A stretch of DNA of 57,822 nucleotides, taken from NCBI RefSeq assembly GCF_024372745.1, contig NZ_VOTZ01000017.1, forward strand, positions 1 to 57,822, in the 5' to 3' direction. Below, piece after piece: positions 2,049 to 10,396 of this stretch. This stretch comes from Methanocalculus taiwanensis (GTDB taxonomy: Archaea; Halobacteriota; Methanomicrobia; Methanomicrobiales; Methanocorpusculaceae). The notes under the pieces were generated by a model, which saw only the letters and a program-made list of their open reading frames with translations, was not told where the DNA came from and did not search any database. The position numbers and the translations under genes were made by a program. Numbering within the stretch: position 1 is the first letter of the stretch; every line of letters starts with the position of its first letter.

Positions 2049-3434
2049 TTAGTTTTGCTTCGTTCCTGATCTGCGGCAGCACTCAAGGAATGAAGCGATC
2101 ATGTCGGCACTTGCAACAGGGTGGAGATGTGCATAGCTTCCAATGGTATTGTTCACCAGGATTCCGTCATTTCCGGAGGCTATCCCCTTTCCACGGGAGA
2201 GCCTGAACGCATACTGCTGTTTTGGATCCATCCTGATCTCACTGTAATGGAACTCATGCCCACGAAATGCAGCTGTACCCATCGGGCTGTTTTGTGATCT
2301 CCCCTCCACATATCCAAGCACCCGTTTTGATGGCATCTCAGTGTCGCCGGGAAACACACCACACATCTGATGGGTCACTGCATCTGTCTGCCCCTGCCAG
2401 CCTGCTTTCTTTGTAATTGACCGGGTGAGATACATCAGGCCGCCACATTCTGCAAATATCGGAATACCATTATTTGAGGCGCTGGCGATTGAATCCCGCA
2501 TTGCATCATTTTCTTCAAGCGCTTCTGCAAACAGCTCGGGGTAGCCGCCGCCGATAATATACCCGTCAGCTTCAGGGAGCAGGTCGTGAATCGGAGAGAA
2601 GAAGACCAGTTCTGCTCCACCAGAGCGGAGGAGATCAAAGAGATCGGCATAGTAGAAGGTAAAAGCTTCATCATAGGCAATTCCAATCCGAAGATCCACT
2701 TCCTGTTTGTTTGAAAAGGCGCGATGAGGGACACCTGGATGGCGCGGCTCTTCTGCGAGTGTTAGGAGGGCATCGATATCGATATACTCCTCAATCACAC
2801 GGGTGATCGTATCGATCCGATCTGAGAATGCGCTGTCCTCGCTCCCCTCGCGATACGGCACCAGTCCGAGATGCCGCATAGCGAGTTCCATCTCCGGCAT
2901 ATTCGGCACTGCCCCCACAACAGGGATTCCGCAGAAGTGTTCGATTGCGCCTTTTGCCTTCTCAAGGTGCCTGCCACCGGATACATTGTTTAGGATCACA
3001 CCTTTGATGCTGACATCAGGATCAAAGGACTGAAAACCCCGCACAATCGCAGCGGCGCTCCGGGTGATACTCTTTGCATTGATGACAAGGACGCAATTGA
3101 CCCCAAGCGCCTTCGCAACAGATGCTGTACTCCCGGTATCTCCAAGAACCTCTGCACCTTCATAGAGGCCGCGGACACCTTCGATAACACAGATATCAGC
3201 CCCCTTTGCGGCATGAGAGTAGATGCCGCGGAGACCATCCGCATCAAGGACATAGCTGTCGAGATTCCTGCATGGCCGTCCGGTGACACCGGTCAGGTAT
3301 GAGGGATCAATATAATCCATCCCGACCTTGTATGTCTGCACCGGCATTCGTTTCGCAAGGATCGCAGAGATTGCAAGCGTGATGCTCGTCTTTCCGCATC
3401 CGGACCGATCACCGGAGATCAGGAGGGTGCGCAT
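2049..3434 (-). CDS. cfbB: Ni-sirohydrochlorin a,c-diamide synthase
   Basis: A 461-residue CbiA-like amidotransferase. In F430 synthesis it uses ATP and glutamine to amidate the a and c acetate side chains of Ni-sirohydrochlorin. The N-terminus has the P-loop SGDRSGCGKTS. The C-terminal half is the glutaminase-like domain, with the nucleophile cysteine in AECGGLMYLT and the histidine in GSYAHLHPVAS. CobB and CbiA share this architecture. I call CfbB because the gene lies between cfbD and ilvE in a run that also contains cfbA and cfbE. Its start overlaps the end of cfbD by 16 nt, which suggests coupled translation. Confidence 0.92.
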   Translation of the reverse strand: MRTLLISGDRSGCGKTSITLAISAILAKRMPVQTYKVGMDYIDPSYLTGVTGRPCRNLDSYVLDADGLRGIYSHAAKGADICVIEGVRGLYEGAEVLGDTGSTASVAKALGVNCVLVINAKSITRSAAAIVRGFQSFDPDVSIKGVILNNVSGGRHLEKAKGAIEHFCGIPVVGAVPNMPEMELAMRHLGLVPYREGSEDSAFSDRIDTITRVIEEYIDIDALLTLAEEPRHPGVPHRAFSNKQEVDLRIGIAYDEAFTFYYADLFDLLRSGGAELVFFSPIHDLLPEADGYIIGGGYPELFAEALEENDAMRDSIASASNNGIPIFAECGGLMYLTRSITKKAGWQGQTDAVTHQMCGVFPGDTEMPSKRVLGYVEGRSQNSPMGTAAFRGHEFHYSEIRMDPKQQYAFRLSRGKGIASGNDGILVNNTIGSYAHLHPVASADMIASFLECCRRSGTKQN

Positions 3435-4495
3435 TTCATGCTCCTGAGCACAGCCCCAAATTCACTCTCAACAATGGATCGGACTCCAAGGGTCTTTGGG
3501 TGGAGATCAATTTCGACGAGGACATACTGATGGCCAAGTTCACGTAATGGTGCTACCTGACGGGGTCCGTTTGTGATGGAGAAGACTGTGATTCCTTTTG
3601 TATATTCAGCAGGCACTGCATGGGGAACGCCGACAATCAACAGGAAATCCGGATTCCTCTCCTGGATTGCGCTGCCCATATCATCTCCAAGCGCCCCGTA
3701 CTCATCAAGCGAGCCAAGGATGGAGAGAGGGAGCCCGCGCTCCTGCGCTTCTGTGCGGATCCTCTCAGCATCGCCCCTTACCTTCGGAAGGCCGCAATCG
3801 CCGAGGTTTGCGAGATAGGTGACATCGGCATCAGGCGCTGCCTCATGGAGTGCACAGAGCTCATCGATGAACATGTATGCGGTCTCCTTCTTCGCGTTCA
3901 TGATCGCCATCCCTTTTTTACCGGATCGGGCATATTCGAGGAGAGCCTGTGCGGCGATATGCTTCAGATCTCCGCGTTCAGGTTCGATATAACGCTTTGA
4001 TGCTGCGCCACGGAGCCGTTCCACCTCATTTGCCTTTGCAAGGAGATGGCGCTGCCTCGTCAGTTCATCTTCGGTGATCCAGCCAGCTTTTGCAGCCGGT
4101 TCAAGGGCGGCAATGACACCGTCAATATTCTCGGAAAACCCTGCATGGATATCTACTGTGATTGCCGGAGTGGTAATGCCTGAAGAGTCGATTGCCGCCT
4201 GCATATCCTCCCCGATGATCATCGAGACACATGTCCCGATAACTGCCATCCGTTTTGGATTAAAGGTCTTTTCAGCGTACCGAAGTACATCTTCAAGGAG
4301 CTGCTGGCCTCCGAAGATGAACTCGTTATCTGCAAGGGATGTGGTGATCACCCTGAGCCCGTCTTCCTCCAGAAGGCGTGCATGTTTGAATGAACACCCG
4401 GACGGCCCATGGAGGACTGCGACATCTACTCCGAGGTCACGGACTGTATACAGGGCGGCGACGATGGAACTTGGGCGTGGCTGAATGTATTGCAT
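3419..4495 (-). CDS. cfbD: Ni-sirohydrochlorin a,c-diamide reductive cyclase, NifD-like subunit
   Basis: A 358-residue nitrogenase-like catalytic subunit. With the iron protein CfbC it performs the six-electron reduction and cyclisation to 15,17(3)-seco-F430-17(3)-acid. Candidate cluster cysteines are in GPSGCSFKHARLL, GTCVSMIIGED and GDCGLPK. It is shorter than true NifD, as is usual for CfbD. The Shine-Dalgarno sequence GGAGGT lies 9 nt before the ATG and overlaps the cfbE stop, so cfbE and cfbD are probably one transcript. The NifH-like partner cfbC is not in this window. Confidence 0.92.
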   Translation of the reverse strand: MQYIQPRPSSIVAALYTVRDLGVDVAVLHGPSGCSFKHARLLEEDGLRVITTSLADNEFIFGGQQLLEDVLRYAEKTFNPKRMAVIGTCVSMIIGEDMQAAIDSSGITTPAITVDIHAGFSENIDGVIAALEPAAKAGWITEDELTRQRHLLAKANEVERLRGAASKRYIEPERGDLKHIAAQALLEYARSGKKGMAIMNAKKETAYMFIDELCALHEAAPDADVTYLANLGDCGLPKVRGDAERIRTEAQERGLPLSILGSLDEYGALGDDMGSAIQERNPDFLLIVGVPHAVPAEYTKGITVFSITNGPRQVAPLRELGHQYVLVEIDLHPKTLGVRSIVESEFGAVLRSMKCAPS

Positions 4496-4502
4496 CTGAT
4501 CT

Positions 4503-5699
4503 TTACCTCCATGTTTTTACTGCAAGAAGAAGAATTGTTCCCGGCTCCCGTGGCGCCTTCCGTCTTGCCTCATCAAGTGAAGAGGCGAGAGTGGCACCGG
4601 GATAGCCGGAAATACTCTCCTCATTTGGATTCATTAATACAAGCGTAAGTATATCAGGATGGATTATTTCAATAGCACGCCTGATATCAGATTCTGCAAA
4701 GTTTTCACAGACTGCATGCTGGTCCTGCCCTATAACAAGATGAAGCGGGCTATCCGGCTGAAGCCTGCGTGCATATTCTGCAGATTCAAGAGTGGTTTCC
4801 CATGTGGTCCCGCTGTTTGAAGCATCCACGATTAAACAACCATCCTCAATCTCTGTCCGCATGCGGCCGGGCAGTGGTTCAAATGAAGAGAGCGGGGCTG
4901 GATCGATACCAAGAAGGCACGCAGCCGCAGTTGCAAACATCAGGGGATAGCAGTACCCCTTCAGATGAAGAAGGGGATGATCGAATGATCCGCTGATACT
5001 TCCATAATCATAGATCAGTCTGTCCCGCTCAATTGAGACGATATCTCCGACAGCATGCTGATCTGGATGGTGATCCAATCTAATGTCATCGGGAAGAAGC
5101 ACCTGCCTGCATACCTTGAGGGCATCGCATTTTGTAGCACATGCTGATCGCTTTTTGCCAGCGATTGGATAGTCATCTGCTGAGGTGAGAATGCCAAGAT
5201 CCCCCATCCCCGATACACCAAGGGAACATTCGCCAATAAACCATCCTCCGAGAGCATATGCCTGCCTGGCAGGGGCAATCAGGCTTGCAGGAGTGATGCT
5301 GGTTCTCGCAAGTTTCTGCTTTTTTGGGTACTGGATTGTCCCCGAAGATGTGTGAAGGATACCTACGCTACCCATCAGGTGGGCAAGTGCATATGCAGTT
5401 GTCGTCTTTCCGCGTGCCCCGGTGATCTCGATCATCGGGTGCGGTTTTGCAGATCCAATCAGGATGCCCGCTGCCTGGTGATGAGTGATAACCGGTAATC
5501 CCGCATGAAGGAGGGGATATGCTGGATCAAGATGAACCGGCGCGATACAACAGGAGTATACCTTCTGAAAAGCGTCTTCCGGGGAGATTCCTACTTCACT
5601 CCGGTAGACATCCACACAGTCAACACTAAAACCCTGCTCACGAAGGGCAGAGGCGATTACTTCTCCGCCATGAATCGTGTCAAGCGCGAGCAGGCGCAT
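4503..5699 (-). CDS. cfbE: Coenzyme F430 synthetase (Mur ligase family)
   Basis: A MurF-like ATP-dependent ligase that closes the carbocyclic ring of F430 from seco-F430. The ATP-binding motif is EITGARGKTTTAYALAHL. The C-terminal half has the SNSGTTWETT and VIGQDQH stretches. I place the start at MRLLALDTIHGGEVIA (398 residues). That matches how the family begins, just after the cfbA stop. Two upstream ATGs at 5738 and 5729 are in frame and would overlap cfbA; the latter has GCGGAGA before it, so the start is not certain. The stop codon lies inside the ribosome-binding site of cfbD. Confidence 0.9.
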   Translation of the reverse strand: MRLLALDTIHGGEVIASALREQGFSVDCVDVYRSEVGISPEDAFQKVYSCCIAPVHLDPAYPLLHAGLPVITHHQAAGILIGSAKPHPMIEITGARGKTTTAYALAHLMGSVGILHTSSGTIQYPKKQKLARTSITPASLIAPARQAYALGGWFIGECSLGVSGMGDLGILTSADDYPIAGKKRSACATKCDALKVCRQVLLPDDIRLDHHPDQHAVGDIVSIERDRLIYDYGSISGSFDHPLLHLKGYCYPLMFATAAACLLGIDPAPLSSFEPLPGRMRTEIEDGCLIVDASNSGTTWETTLESAEYARRLQPDSPLHLVIGQDQHAVCENFAESDIRRAIEIIHPDILTLVLMNPNEESISGYPGATLASSLDEARRKAPREPGTILLLAVKTWR

Positions 5700-5706
5700 A
5701 AAAAAT

Positions 5707-6111
5707 TCAGAGGTGATCGCGGATTGCATTCTCCGCATTCTTCAGCATCAGTTCTGCAAGAAGAGGATCGCCACCAATTGGGTCAGCATAAACAAGCGGG
5801 ATCTCTTTGCCACTCAGGCTCAGAACACCCCGCTTCTTCCCCTCTTCAAGACCGAGGATTCCTGGAATATCTTTTAATATGTGAATGCCCTTTGCAAGGA
5901 AGAGCGGGACAACGACGAGGAGATCGATATCCTCACCTGAGAATGCCTGCATTGAATCCTCTACCGAGGGCTCATTCATGCTCATAAAACCGGATTTGAC
6001 GATATAACCATTGTTCTTCTCTGCGATGAGTGCGGCTGTGCTCTCAACGAGCTCCTTGTTGTGTGGGAGTTTACTCCCATGTCCGACCAGTAGTAAGCCT
6101 TTCTTAGCCAT
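5707..6111 (-). CDS. cfbA: Sirohydrochlorin nickelochelatase
   Basis: A 134-residue short CbiX-type chelatase that inserts Ni2+ into sirohydrochlorin, the first committed step of F430 synthesis. It shows the family start LLVGHGSKLPHNKELVE with a metal-binding histidine. A second histidine is in FLAKGIHILKDIPG. Archaeal CfbA is half the length of bacterial chelatases and works as a homodimer, so the size fits. It is the first gene of the minus-strand cfb run and is divergent from the marker 9 gene, with 104 nt between them holding both promoters. A cobalt-inserting role is possible, but the neighbours point to nickel. Confidence 0.92.
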   Translation of the reverse strand: MAKKGLLLVGHGSKLPHNKELVESTAALIAEKNNGYIVKSGFMSMNEPSVEDSMQAFSGEDIDLLVVVPLFLAKGIHILKDIPGILGLEEGKKRGVLSLSGKEIPLVYADPIGGDPLLAELMLKNAENAIRDHL

Positions 6112-6215
6112 TATACAAGAGTTGTACCATTGAAGGTAAAAAGTATTATCGATCTGGATCTGTTGGAGGCAGATCCAAAATACTATCCCTGATCATTTCA
6201 AATACTAGAGAATCT

Positions 6216-7349
6216 ATGATGGAGGCATACGAACGTTTTGAACTCCTGATGAACCAGCAGATCGTCAGGACACCAATTGCACTGGCATCCATGGCTGGAA
6301 TTGTGGATGCAGCATATGCGCTGGAGCGAGGTGGACATATTGGTGCTGCGTTCCTCGGGGGGTTCTCCATCGATGATGAGACGGTGCTCGCAAGCCATGA
6401 TCTTGCTGAAGCCGGAAGACGGGAGTTCTTCTTTCCCGATCCTATCGAGGGAATCAGATCAGAGATCAAAAAACTCGAGGGATCTGATATCGTTCCTGGA
6501 ATGAACCTGCGTGGCTCATCACCAGCATCTTTTGAACATCTTGCAGATGAGATTGGGGATATCGCAATCTATGAGATTGATGCCCATTGCCGCCAGATGC
6601 CGATGATCAAGGCGGGTGCCGGGGAGCATCTGCTCACCCATCACCACGATCTCTGTGATACTATCCGGGCATTAAAAAAATATGATACCTGTGTTTCAGT
6701 GAAGATTCGGACAGGTATTACTGATGAGCGCACGCTTTCACGAGCACTCTGGAAGGCCGGGGCAGATATCATCCATGTTGACCTGATGGACAATGGATAC
6801 CAGAAGATCCGGCAGATCCGAAACGCATGCCCTCTCCAGATCATCGCAAACAACTCAATGCACTCCTATGACCGGGTGATGGAGCAGTTCTCACATGGCG
6901 CAGATCTCGTCTCTGTTGCACGAAAAGCCGATCTGCATACCCTCAAAGGTCTGGATGCTGCCATCCGCAGGTATGCTGACGAGATCGGCTGGTACAACGC
7001 ACCCAAGCAGCTCTGCCGCGGTGGTGATCTCCGGGCTCTTGCCTTCTGCTGTATGCCAGTCAAGGAATGTCCGCTCCTGCCTGCCCTCAAAGGAATACAG
7101 ATGGACAGAACCGCATATGTTGACCTGAAGCGGCGTTCGGTTGCAGGCACTCCTCTCCAGGATGGGGCGCACACGTGTTTTGGGAGCCTTGCATGGTGCT
7201 GCAAGTCATCTACCCCCTGCATGTTCCGGGATATGACCCTGAAGAATCTCAATCTATCAAAGCCTGAATATATGAAGAATAAAAGGAGACTTTCTGAGAA
7301 GATTATGGAGGAGATCTTCCGTGAAGTGCCCGCCGACATCCCGTGCTGA
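6216..7349 (+). CDS. Methanogenesis marker protein 9
   Basis: A 377-residue protein with a TIM-barrel body resembling dihydrouridine synthase (SVKIRTGITDERTLSRAL, ADIIHVDLMDNGYQKI, NNSMHSYDRVMEQFSHGADLVSVARKA). A cysteine-rich C-terminus follows (CRGGDLRALAFCCMPVKECPLLP, then CFGSLAWCCKSSTPCMF). That cysteine set could bind an Fe-S cluster and is the hallmark of marker 9. Its reaction is not established. ATG codons occur at 6216 and 6219. Its last 29 nt overlap the start of the CitG-like gene, so they are likely co-expressed. Confidence 0.85.
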   Translation: MMEAYERFELLMNQQIVRTPIALASMAGIVDAAYALERGGHIGAAFLGGFSIDDETVLASHDLAEAGRREFFFPDPIEGIRSEIKKLEGSDIVPGMNLRGSSPASFEHLADEIGDIAIYEIDAHCRQMPMIKAGAGEHLLTHHHDLCDTIRALKKYDTCVSVKIRTGITDERTLSRALWKAGADIIHVDLMDNGYQKIRQIRNACPLQIIANNSMHSYDRVMEQFSHGADLVSVARKADLHTLKGLDAAIRRYADEIGWYNAPKQLCRGGDLRALAFCCMPVKECPLLPALKGIQMDRTAYVDLKRRSVAGTPLQDGAHTCFGSLAWCCKSSTPCMFRDMTLKNLNLSKPEYMKNKRRLSEKIMEEIFREVPADIPC

Positions 7350-8142
7350 GCTTGCCCAGCTCGCAATGATGCTTGAAGTGACGGCATATCCAAAGCCGGG
7401 GAATGTCGATCGCTGCCATGATTATGAAGATACCCGGCTCGAACATTTTCTCGCATCAGTGATTGCCTGCCGCCCCACCCTTGATGTAGTCGGGCGAGGG
7501 GAGCTCTCTATCGGCGCTGCCATCTATGATGCAGTTGTCAGGACAAACTGCCATTTGGGTGGCAACACCCATTTCGGTGCCTTTATCCTGTTAATGCCAC
7601 TTATTGCCGGAGGCGATATCCCAGGCGCTCTCCGGCTCATAAAGGAAACAACCGTTCACGATGCAGTCCTTTTTTATCAGGCATTTGCAGAGACACAGGT
7701 CCGGGTGATCGAGTCTGACGGGCTGGATGTGAATGACCCTGATTCAATAGAACAGATCAGGCGTGATCAGCTGACACTCCTTGATGTGATGGCATATTCT
7801 GCGCCAAAAGATATGATCTGCCGCGAGTGGGTGGAGGGCTTTCCCCTCACAAGACGCTTTGCTGACCGGCTCCATGATGCCGGCGGCGGTGCAAAAGCGA
7901 TCAGCCCCCTCTTCATCGGCTTGATGGCAAAGGAGATGGATACCTTCATCGCCAAGAAGTTCAATGCAGAGGTTGCAGAAGAGGCGATGGCGATGGCACA
8001 GGAGGTGCTGGGGGGGCGGCGGACTGTTGAATCGATGGATGAGGAGTGCATCCGCCGCGGCATCAATCCCGGTTCACTTGCCGACATCACCATCGCCGGG
8101 ATCTATCTTGCACTCACTGAGGGATGGCAATGGGACCGATAA
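7321..8142 (+). CDS. CitG-like triphosphoribosyl-dephospho-CoA synthase family protein
   Basis: A 273-residue COG1767 protein. In bacteria CitG makes the prosthetic-group precursor of citrate lyase from ATP and dephospho-CoA. Family motifs are AYPKPGNVDRCHDYEDT near residue 21 and GGNTHFGAFILLMPL near residue 80. GTG is the start codon. No citrate lyase genes are present, so the bacterial role is unlikely here. Placement between marker 9 and DUF447 suggests a methanogen-specific cofactor step. The overlap with marker 9 suggests translational coupling. Confidence 0.8.
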   Translation: MKCPPTSRAELAQLAMMLEVTAYPKPGNVDRCHDYEDTRLEHFLASVIACRPTLDVVGRGELSIGAAIYDAVVRTNCHLGGNTHFGAFILLMPLIAGGDIPGALRLIKETTVHDAVLFYQAFAETQVRVIESDGLDVNDPDSIEQIRRDQLTLLDVMAYSAPKDMICREWVEGFPLTRRFADRLHDAGGGAKAISPLFIGLMAKEMDTFIAKKFNAEVAEEAMAMAQEVLGGRRTVESMDEECIRRGINPGSLADITIAGIYLALTEGWQWDR

Positions 8143-8219
8143 GGGATCAGAGAGGGGATCATCTTCAGGATCACTCAAAGGAACAGGCTCCGGATGAACG
8201 TATCCGGGAGGCAAATATC

Positions 8220-8792
8220 ATGCAGGATAGCATCCTTCATGAAGGCATCAACGAGGTGATCGGCACCACCCGCCTGAATGCCGCACCGATGGGCGTGATA
8301 CTCCGGGGCGGCCGCTACACGCTCGCCCTTTTTAAAGGAAGCCATACCGCAGAAAATATCGTCCGGGACGGCTGGTTTATTGCAAACCTGATCCATGATC
8401 CGGTAATCTATGTCGAGTCCGCATTTGGCGATCTCACTGACGATGTATTCACCACAGAAATAATAGACAGCACAGAGATGCACCGCCTCGCCGCCGCCGA
8501 GGCATGGGTTGCCTTCCGGGCAGAGGTGATCGGACAGAGCAGCGAAGCATACAGCATCCTCCTTACGCCGCTCAGAGAAGAAATCCTGGCTCGCTCCATC
8601 CACCCTGTGAACCGGGGCTTCAACGCGATCATCGAGGCAGCGGTGCATGCAACCCGGTATATCATGAACCACGATCCAGAACTGGAGTGGCTGATCCGGC
8701 ATCACCTGGCGCTTGCGAGGAAGTGCGGGGGCGAGCGGGAGAAGCAGGCGGCGGGGATGGTTGAGGAGTTGATCAGGGAAGAATCTTTGTAG
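8220..8792 (+). CDS. DUF447 family protein (COG2457)
   Basis: A 190-residue conserved archaeal protein of unknown function, thought to have a flavin-reductase-like beta-barrel fold. I chose the ATG at 8220 because GGGAGG sits 9 nt upstream and homologues begin near MQDSILHEGINEVIGTTRLNAAPMGVI. An in-frame ATG at 8124 would overlap the CitG-like gene. Its 3' half (from 8481) is duplicated about 1.6 kb downstream. It is the third gene of the marker 9/CitG-like group. Confidence 0.8.
   Translation: MQDSILHEGINEVIGTTRLNAAPMGVILRGGRYTLALFKGSHTAENIVRDGWFIANLIHDPVIYVESAFGDLTDDVFTTEIIDSTEMHRLAAAEAWVAFRAEVIGQSSEAYSILLTPLREEILARSIHPVNRGFNAIIEAAVHATRYIMNHDPELEWLIRHHLALARKCGGEREKQAAGMVEELIREESL
8481..8771 (+). 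repeat. Direct repeat, copy 1 (DUF447 3' end)
   Basis: These 291 bases align without gaps to 10097-10387. By hand I count about 19 mismatches (about 93% identity). This copy is inside the intact DUF447 gene and encodes its last 97 or so residues. Confidence 0.95.
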
Positions 8793-8874: not shown

Positions 8875-9080
8875 ATGACATTCAGGAATTACCGTATTAT
8901 GCTCCGTAAAGAACCCGAAGGCGGTTACACGGTCACTGTTCCAATCCTGCCAGGCTGTATATTACCTTTGGTGAAACAATAGATGAGGCAATAGAGATTG
9001 CAAAAGAAGCAATAGAACTCTATATTGAGCACCTTCTGGAGAAGGGAGAGGAGAGATCAATAAGAGGCTCTCAGACCTGA
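8875..9080 (+). pseudogene. HicB-like antitoxin, frameshifted
   Basis: The reading frame begins MTFRNYRIMLRKEPEGGYTV and reaches LPGC at 8958. One base then appears to be missing (8959-8960). The next frame continues ITFGETIDEAIEIAKEAIELYIEHLLEKGEERS to a stop at 9080. Together they match a complete short HicB antitoxin (partial RNase-H fold). No HicA toxin is beside it. The last 10 bases overlap the convergent gene at 9071. A sequencing error rather than a true mutation is possible. Confidence 0.8.
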
Positions 9081-9883
9081 ATGCCTGCCCGGGAAAGAGC
9101 ATCTTCGATGGAGTGAAGTTTCTGTTTTATCTCTTTGAATTCATCATCAAGGCATTTTCCTGTCTCCTTTCGAAGACGTACAATCTCTTCTTTTGTCTCT
9201 TTCCCGGTCTGGTGCATCAGGTCTTGTTTTTCGAGCATCTGATCCGATTTCTCCAGCATCTGATCCTGCTTTCCTAACATCTGATCCTGCTTTCCTAACA
9301 TCTGATCCGATTTCTCCAGCATCTGATCCGATTTCTCCAGCATCTGATCCGATTTCTCCAACATCTGATCCTGTTTTTCGAGCATCTGATCCTGCTTCCC
9401 TAACATCAGATCCGATTTCTCCAACATCTGATCCTGTTTTTCGAGCATCTGATCCTGCTTCCCTAACATCAGATCCTGTTTCTCCAGCATCTGACTCTGT
9501 AACTGAAGGCTTGTTTTCGTATGATCGAGGGTTGCTTTTGAAACATCCAGTATTTCATGCATGATCATCCCGGCATAATCCATCCTTTCGAATGTTTCCT
9601 CCTGAATATCTCCCCTGATTATGTTAAACCTCTTCCATTCACCTGTTGCATCCCCCCATTCTACATGACATGAGGTGACCTGTATCGGGTAGCGAAGTAT
9701 GTTAATTTCTTTTATAAAGGTATGAATATCCTCTTCCCTCCCTTCGGCAACAATCTCGACTTCCTCTGTATCGAGATTCTTTACATACCCTGTAATACCA
9801 CCCTTAACCGCTTCTTTGCGAACATGCTCCCGATAGCCGACCTTCTGGACATAGCCATCAACGATCACATGAATTCGTCTCAT
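9071..9883 (-). CDS. Acylphosphatase domain fused to a heptad-repeat coiled coil
   Basis: A 270-residue protein. Residues 1-91 are an acylphosphatase-like domain (HVIVDGYVQKVGYREHVRKEA, then GYVKNLDTEEVEIVAEG). The usual GxVQGVGFR loop is altered to GYVQKVGYR but keeps the arginine. Residues 132-222 are 13 tandem copies of the heptad ML[EG]K[QS]D[QL], predicted to form a long charged coiled coil. The C-terminus is a further Lys/Glu-rich helix. The function is unknown: the acylphosphatase part may still hydrolyse carboxyl-phosphates or may only bind. It lies between the two DUF447 repeats, beside a broken hicB. Confidence 0.75.
   Translation of the reverse strand: MRRIHVIVDGYVQKVGYREHVRKEAVKGGITGYVKNLDTEEVEIVAEGREEDIHTFIKEINILRYPIQVTSCHVEWGDATGEWKRFNIIRGDIQEETFERMDYAGMIMHEILDVSKATLDHTKTSLQLQSQMLEKQDLMLGKQDQMLEKQDQMLEKSDLMLGKQDQMLEKQDQMLEKSDQMLEKSDQMLEKSDQMLGKQDQMLGKQDQMLEKSDQMLEKQDLMHQTGKETKEEIVRLRKETGKCLDDEFKEIKQKLHSIEDALSRAGIQV
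9218..9490 (-). repeat. 21-bp minisatellite, 13 units, coding
   Basis: Thirteen in-frame units of 21 bp encode the ML[EG]K[QS]D[QL] heptads of the acylphosphatase/coiled-coil gene. Units come in two main DNA forms, one coding KSD and one coding KQD, shuffled along the array. This is typical of expansion by slippage or unequal exchange. Confidence 0.95.
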
Positions 9884-10051: not shown

Positions 10052-10396
10052 ATGAGGCACACAATTTCAACTGAGCTGGCCAATGGCACTCCGATACACC
10101 GCCTCGCCGCCGCCGAGGCATGGGTTGCCTTCCGGGCAGAGGTGATCGGCGAGAGCAGCGAGGCATACAGCATCCTCCTCACGCCGCTCAGAGAAGAGGT
10201 GCTGGTTCGCTCCATCCGTCCGGTGAACCGGGGCTTCAACGCGATCATCGAGGCGGCGGTGCACGGCACCCGGTACATCATGAACCATGATCCAGAACTG
10301 GAGTGGCTGATCCGGCATCACCTGGCGCTTGCGAGGAAGTGCGGGGGCGAGCGGGAGAAGCAGGCGGCTGGGATGGTTGAGGGGTTGTTAAAATAG
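10052..10396 (+). pseudogene. DUF447 C-terminal fragment (duplicate)
   Basis: An open frame of 114 codons. Its residues from HRLAAAEAWVAFRAEVIG to the end copy the C-terminal half of the DUF447 protein. The N-terminal flavin-fold half is absent. The first 15 codons (MRHTISTELANGTPI) are unrelated. No ribosome-binding site is evident before the ATG. It is best read as a truncated duplicate. Upstream, 9920-10055 holds another short open frame (ending RMITLYPESL) that I do not recognise. Confidence 0.8.
10097..10387 (+). repeat. Direct repeat, copy 2 (DUF447 3' end)
   Basis: Gapless match to 8481-8771 at about 93% identity by hand count. Many differences fall at codon third positions. The copy therefore probably stayed coding for some time, or came from a relative's gene. 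Confidence 0.95.

Follow-up and report, generated by a model that had tools for sequence, protein, structure and literature searches.

The CitG-like and DUF447 proteins encoded side by side in the analyzed window, a stretch of 57,822 nucleotides from Methanocalculus taiwanensis, are on genome evidence very probably enzymes of tetrahydromethanopterin (H4MPT) biosynthesis, and they probably fill two steps of methanopterin assembly. One-carbon units are carried by H4MPT during methanogenesis and, in bacteria, during much of formaldehyde oxidation. The marker 9 protein is a member of the same operon, but it is only partly tied to the H4MPT module, namely by way of its TIM-barrel half, which is found upstream of CitG in halophiles. 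The full explanation put forward here, with CitG-like and DUF447 as H4MPT enzymes at the particular steps discussed below and marker 9 in their operon, seems reasonably likely. A first-pass annotation of this DNA had suggested that all three proteins contribute to a joint step of a C1-carrier or methanogen cofactor pathway, and the notion of a C1-carrier pathway is supported for CitG-like and DUF447, which track H4MPT genes, but not for marker 9 as a whole, whose distribution differs.

All three genes are present and intact (Table 1), and they are indeed tightly packed and partly overlapping as previously described, with the open frames of marker 9 and CitG-like overlapping by 29 nt and those of CitG-like and DUF447 by 19 nt; similar overlaps recur in relatives. 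The brief stretch that separates the divergent cfbA and marker 9 genes holds a perfect 8-bp inverted repeat, TGGATCTG-TTGGAGG-CAGATCCA, at positions 6153-6178, which is possibly an operator and which is not obvious in those relatives whose sequence was inspected. Positions 9071-9883 encode an acylphosphatase domain with an unusual, long tail of near-identical 7-residue repeats (QDQMLEK or SDQMLEK), and 1.3 kb downstream of the intact DUF447 gene lies a truncated second copy, of which 275 of 295 bases (93%) are identical to positions 8477-8771 and which is probably the remnant of a recent partial duplication.

Table 1. Position and assignment of the module, its divergent neighbors and the second DUF447 copy.
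Feature	Position	Strand	Remarks
cfbD	3419-4495	-	Coenzyme F430 synthesis; cfb trio assigned from TIGR03282, NF033197 and NF033198, over cut-off
cfbE	4503-5738	-	Coenzyme F430 synthesis
cfbA	5707-6111	-	Coenzyme F430 synthesis; the cfb genes (3419..6111) are divergent to the marker 9 module
Marker 9 protein	6216..7349	+	377 aa; TIGR03277 152.9 bits, cut-off 96.2
CitG-like protein (Orf7 type)	7321..8142	+	273 aa; PF01874 227 bits
DUF447 protein (Orf19 type)	8124..8792	+	222 aa; PF04289 and PF20766
DUF447 C-terminal half, truncated second copy	10052..10396	+	PF20766 only

The order marker 9, CitG, DUF447 is conserved far beyond chance. In the phylum sample CitG comes directly after marker 9 on the same strand in 78 of 79 genomes, and DUF447 directly after CitG in 119 of 132, the 13 genomes without the latter adjacency all belonging to just two families (f10 and f18). 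The CitG-DUF447 pair is still adjacent in halophiles, a label inferred from membership of the tree clade containing Natrinema and from family membership, and in other lineages without marker 9. Furthermore, an independently encoded TIM barrel with homology to the N-terminus of marker 9 is found upstream of CitG, either directly or a few genes away, in 7 of 8 halophile loci as well as in Natrinema, and a homologous TIM barrel lies directly upstream of CitG in genome G116. A module consisting of TIM barrel, CitG and DUF447 therefore extends beyond the methanogens. Known H4MPT synthesis genes, namely those for DmrX, a DHPS-like protein, AfpA/DmrB and RFAP synthase, are found among the neighbors of CitG-like and DUF447 in the loci examined. 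DmrX (TIGR02700, 410 bits) comes directly behind DUF447 in six Methanosarcina-type loci, and the operon includes both DmrX and a dihydropteroate-synthase-like protein in L180 and L193; in bacteria DUF447 adjoins DUF6513 and AfpA, and the dihydropteroate-synthase-like protein is its usual neighbor (63 of 80 loci). The RFAP synthase gene is not linked to CitG in genome G025, where the two are about 180 kb apart.

The divergent cfbA-cfbE-cfbD genes are adjacent to the module in all 7 Methanomicrobiales-type loci inspected, and since marker 9 is moreover restricted to methanogen-type lineages, the module might be thought to work for coenzyme F430 or for methyl-CoM reductase maturation. The cfb link was however not seen in the remaining methanogen loci inspected, and CitG and DUF447 also occur in Burkholderiales, halophiles and Sulfolobus. 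An F430 role for the whole module was accordingly rejected on distribution, the cfb link being confined to Methanomicrobiales-type loci, and we consider it very unlikely, although the Cys-rich domain of marker 9, taken by itself, may still have such a role or one in methyl-CoM reductase maturation.

The assignment of CitG-like and DUF447 to H4MPT synthesis is supported by their distribution. With RFAP synthase (TIGR00144), which catalyses the committing step of the pathway, as archaeal pathway marker, CitG is found in 170, DUF447 in 171 and RFAP synthase in 173 of the 177 phylum genomes, the pairs with RFAP synthase giving hypergeometric p values of 9e-5 to 1.5e-4 that are uncorrected for descent. 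Three halophile genomes, each 99% complete (G008, G049 and G104), lack CitG, DUF447 and RFAP synthase altogether, and since G104 has congeners in which all three are retained, the genes have probably been lost together at least twice. In the named control genomes the archaea with DUF447 are precisely those with RFAP synthase, four in all and Haloferax and Sulfolobus among them, and CitG is present in these four archaea and in E. coli. The CitG-like and DUF447 genes are furthermore located in the H4MPT islands of methylotrophic bacteria, as the first-pass annotation had correctly stated. Of 250 Burkholderiales-type genomes around Paraburkholderia, 19 encode Mch (methenyl-H4MPT cyclohydrolase); Orf7-type CitG is found in the same 19 and DUF447 in the same 19 and one more (Fisher p ~1e-27, uncorrected for shared descent). 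Orf7-type CitG is likewise present in 36 of 36 named DUF447-bearing bacteria. A DUF447 search with a bacterial alignment returned mostly Burkholderiales. It should also be mentioned that one Burkholderiales-type genome that has neither Mch nor Orf7-type CitG encodes a divergent DUF447 (58.7 bits, G288:C87:4476-4817).

Because the bacterial gene cluster moves as a block, its profile does not by itself distinguish H4MPT from methylofuran, and the presence of mfnB in 79 of 80 bacterial DUF447 loci, usually directly after DUF447, would fit a function of CitG-like and DUF447 in methanofuran or methylofuran synthesis and not in that of the pterin. Both proteins however persist without mfnB in halophiles and Sulfolobus and are lost jointly with RFAP synthase: among the named controls mfnB is found only in the two methanogens and is absent from Haloferax and Sulfolobus, and all of 33 halophile genomes have Mch while none of the 33 has mfnB. 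This persistence without methanofuran synthesis indicates that the carrier is the pterin H4MPT and leads away from methanofuran, and the methanofuran function, rejected on the mfnB profile, is extremely improbable. The phylogenetic profile against methanopterin and methanofuran genes, which had been proposed as a check, hence places CitG-like and DUF447 across methanogens and methylotrophs and on the pterin side, but does not do the same for marker 9.

Some observations do count against the H4MPT reading in halophiles. These are regarded as users of tetrahydrofolate, and Pfeiffer et al. judged the halophile RFAP synthase homolog HVO_2628 to be without RFAP synthase activity and held methanopterin-specific enzymes to be absent from halophiles (PMC8305020). 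Moreover, the F420 synthesis gene CofD lies directly upstream of the TIM barrel/CitG/DUF447 module in five halophile-type loci (L165, L166, L167, L169 and L170) and in Natrinema (L015), a link that we likewise count against this reading. Halophiles nonetheless retain homologs of RFAP synthase, CitG and DUF447 and lose them together, and it is the persistence of these three, often along with the TIM barrel, in halophiles and Sulfolobus that might point to a methanopterin-like pterin there.

The CitG-like protein scores far below the equivalog cut-offs of both TIGR03125 (37.4 bits, cut-off 272.3) and TIGR03132 (20.5 bits, cut-off 282.35). Its predicted model matches 3h9p with a Z score of 26.4 and an rmsd of 2.0 over 218 residues; a likeness to ADP-ribosylhydrolases was discarded, since the Z score of at most 4.2 is below the meaningful level for helical proteins. 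In an alignment the catalytic core of CitG (KPG, GxNT(H/N)xG and PG--AD) is conserved, but the residue following KPG is changed from Leu to Asn and the one preceding PG from Ser to Asn, each in 50 of 51 cases, resulting in an H4MPT-type signature of KPGNV/NPG. Retention of the core with change of the flanking residues is as expected if the enzyme has a new acceptor but its old donor chemistry. In a tree of 60 sequences the archaeal and methylotroph CitG proteins form one group, and a branch with 100/100 support divides it from the CitG of E. coli and the CitG/MdcB of Burkholderiales. The branch leading to the H4MPT clade has a length of 3.16 changes per column, long enough to allow for a different donor.

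Domain (PF01874), fold and catalytic core being common to both, the CitG-like protein could in principle make the triphosphoribosyl-dephospho-CoA prosthetic group, as CitG/MdcB do, and provide it to an unrecognised carrier protein. The PF06857 family of citrate lyase and malonate decarboxylase carrier proteins (CitD/MdcC type) is however absent from G000 and all 177 phylum genomes, with E. coli as positive control, in agreement with the earlier remark that there is no citrate lyase to serve. With scores below both cut-offs, no such carrier and a distinct clade, a true citrate-lyase or malonate-decarboxylase role was rejected, and synthesis of the prosthetic group for some other carrier, which would in addition leave unexplained why the gene is coupled to those for RFAP synthase and H4MPT, is likewise highly improbable.

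The DUF447 protein contains both Pfam domains, and its predicted model has a flavin-reductase-like fold that matches the FMN-bound structure 2nr4 with a Z score of 25.7 and an rmsd of 1.9 over 183 residues. The solved relatives MM1853 (2nr4), Archaeoglobus (2iml), MTH_863 (2ptf) and the planctomycete Rhodopirellula (3b5m) share the fold (Z 18-26), and going by the entry titles FMN is present in three of the four (2nr4, 2iml and 2ptf). The window protein is thus predicted to be an FMN split-barrel flavoprotein. It may start either at 8124 or at position 8220, an internal ATG from which onwards the model is confident, and if the former is the case it differs from its solved relatives by a disordered N-terminal extension of 30 residues.

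Both H4MPT and the bacterial dephospho form have a deoxyribitol chain, which must derive from reduction of the ribofuranosyl ring that RFAP synthase produces, and both bear an alpha-ribofuranosyl group on this ribitol; in H4MPT it is an alpha-ribofuranosyl 5-phosphate joined to a ribitol hydroxyl. To our knowledge neither of these two features, the deoxyribitol chain and the alpha-ribofuranosyl group on ribitol, has an assigned enzyme, and we know of no enzymes assigned to any of the steps after the dihydropteroate-synthase-like condensation. For the former, a hydride provided by DUF447 with its FMN would open the ribofuranosyl ring to give ribitol, and DUF447 is the best candidate for this reduction, if a tentative one that falls somewhat short of an even chance. 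True CitG (EC 2.4.2.52) lets a hydroxyl attack the ribose C1 of ATP, such that adenine is expelled and an alpha-linked 5-triphosphoribosyl group is left. By analogy, the CitG-like protein would displace adenine from ATP and form an alpha-(5-triphospho)ribosyl bond to the ribitol hydroxyl of a pterin intermediate, and we lean slightly towards its being such an ATP-using alpha-ribosyltransferase of H4MPT synthesis. A CitG-type reaction on ATP involves one inversion and hence gives the alpha linkage, which PRPP, being already alpha, would not. Bacterial dephospho-H4MPT differs from H4MPT only by the missing phosphate and hydroxyglutarate (PMC8141765), and the ribosylation is therefore needed in both domains. 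Subsequently 2-hydroxyglutarate might take the place of pyrophosphate in the ribose triphosphate, much as CitX brings about with a serine hydroxyl, or the triphosphate might, in methylotrophs, be hydrolysed, but this fate is speculation and rather unlikely.

The classical scheme of White reportedly has PRPP and not ATP as ribose donor, which counts against the ATP proposal and would favor a function of the CitG-like protein at another step of H4MPT synthesis, for instance one in which PRPP supplies the ribose or one in which the 2-hydroxyglutarate phosphodiester is joined. Such a function would draw on the same pathway evidence and be consistent with the long branch from true CitG, but it is in poor agreement with conservation of an ATP-type catalytic core and with the fact that methylotrophs without the hydroxyglutarate unit (PMC8141765) still keep the CitG-like protein, and we consider it unlikely, yet worth bearing in mind. 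As for the ATP-using transferase, the farthest-reaching version of the proposal, in which ATP is the ribose donor for the methanopterin alpha-ribosyl and its triphosphate is spent on the 2-hydroxyglutarate phosphodiester, and in which halophiles and Sulfolobus also make a methanopterin-like ribosylated pterin besides or instead of folate, is doubtful when both parts are taken together.

The N-terminal part of marker 9 is an FMN-type TIM barrel resembling Dus and dihydroorotate dehydrogenase (DHOD), with the flavin motifs SMAGIVDAAY, DAHCRQ and GADLVSVAR in an alignment of 15 homologs, the second of these corresponding to the Cys of the Dus 'NxGCP' site. It scores 25.4 bits against PF01207 (cut-off 20.4) and 100.9 bits against the archaeal Dus-like TIGR00736, below the cut-off of 218.7, and a PDB sequence search yielded nothing beyond weak matches, designed TIM barrels among them. 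A flavin oxidoreductase acting in the module's own pathway or an allied one is the probable identity of the barrel. The C-terminal domain (residues ~258-365) is Cys-rich, with 8 Cys conserved among the 15 homologs, and is a methanogen-specific addition; it is fully conserved in the Methanotrichaceae-like (f21) loci L055, L068 and L073, where the TIM barrel is degenerate and the DAHCRQ site lost. TIGR03277 is over cut-off in 80 of the 177 phylum genomes and was not found in Haloferax or Sulfolobus, and since no homolog of either half of marker 9 is found in 80 bacterial methylotroph clusters, the bacterial cofactor can probably be made without this protein.

That the CitG and DUF447 families occur in methylotroph islands was already known (orf7 and orf19, by position; PMC3615186). 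In the full-text literature we found no paper linking CitG or triphosphoribosyl with methanopterin and none on 'methanogenesis marker 9', but subscription papers were beyond reach and may hold prior claims. If the explanation is true, gaps in H4MPT synthesis would be filled by two orphan families that are conserved and whose chemistry is suitable, the misleading 'citrate lyase' annotation across archaea would be explained, and the question of the halophilic archaeal C1 carrier would be re-opened.

Compared with known systems, the CitG-like protein shares with CitG/MdcB (PF01874, TIGR03125, TIGR03132) the domain, the all-helical fold (3h9p) and the core KPG, GxNTHxG and PG--AD, but it has KPGNV and NPG where these have KPGLV and SPGGSAD, and it differs furthermore in belonging to a separate clade, in having no carrier protein to modify and in being linked to H4MPT genes. 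DmrX, the archaeal dihydromethanopterin reductase found behind DUF447 in Methanosarcina-type genomes, differs from DUF447 in both fold and family and does not adjoin the module in the window. Orf7 and Orf19 of the archaeal-like islands of methylotrophs are of the same two families as CitG-like and DUF447 and reside in the same H4MPT islands, with orf7 between orf5 and fae and orf19 beside orf20 and afpA, as assigned by position. The two genes are apart within the island in bacteria, whereas in archaea they are adjacent and form an operon with the TIM-barrel flavin protein.
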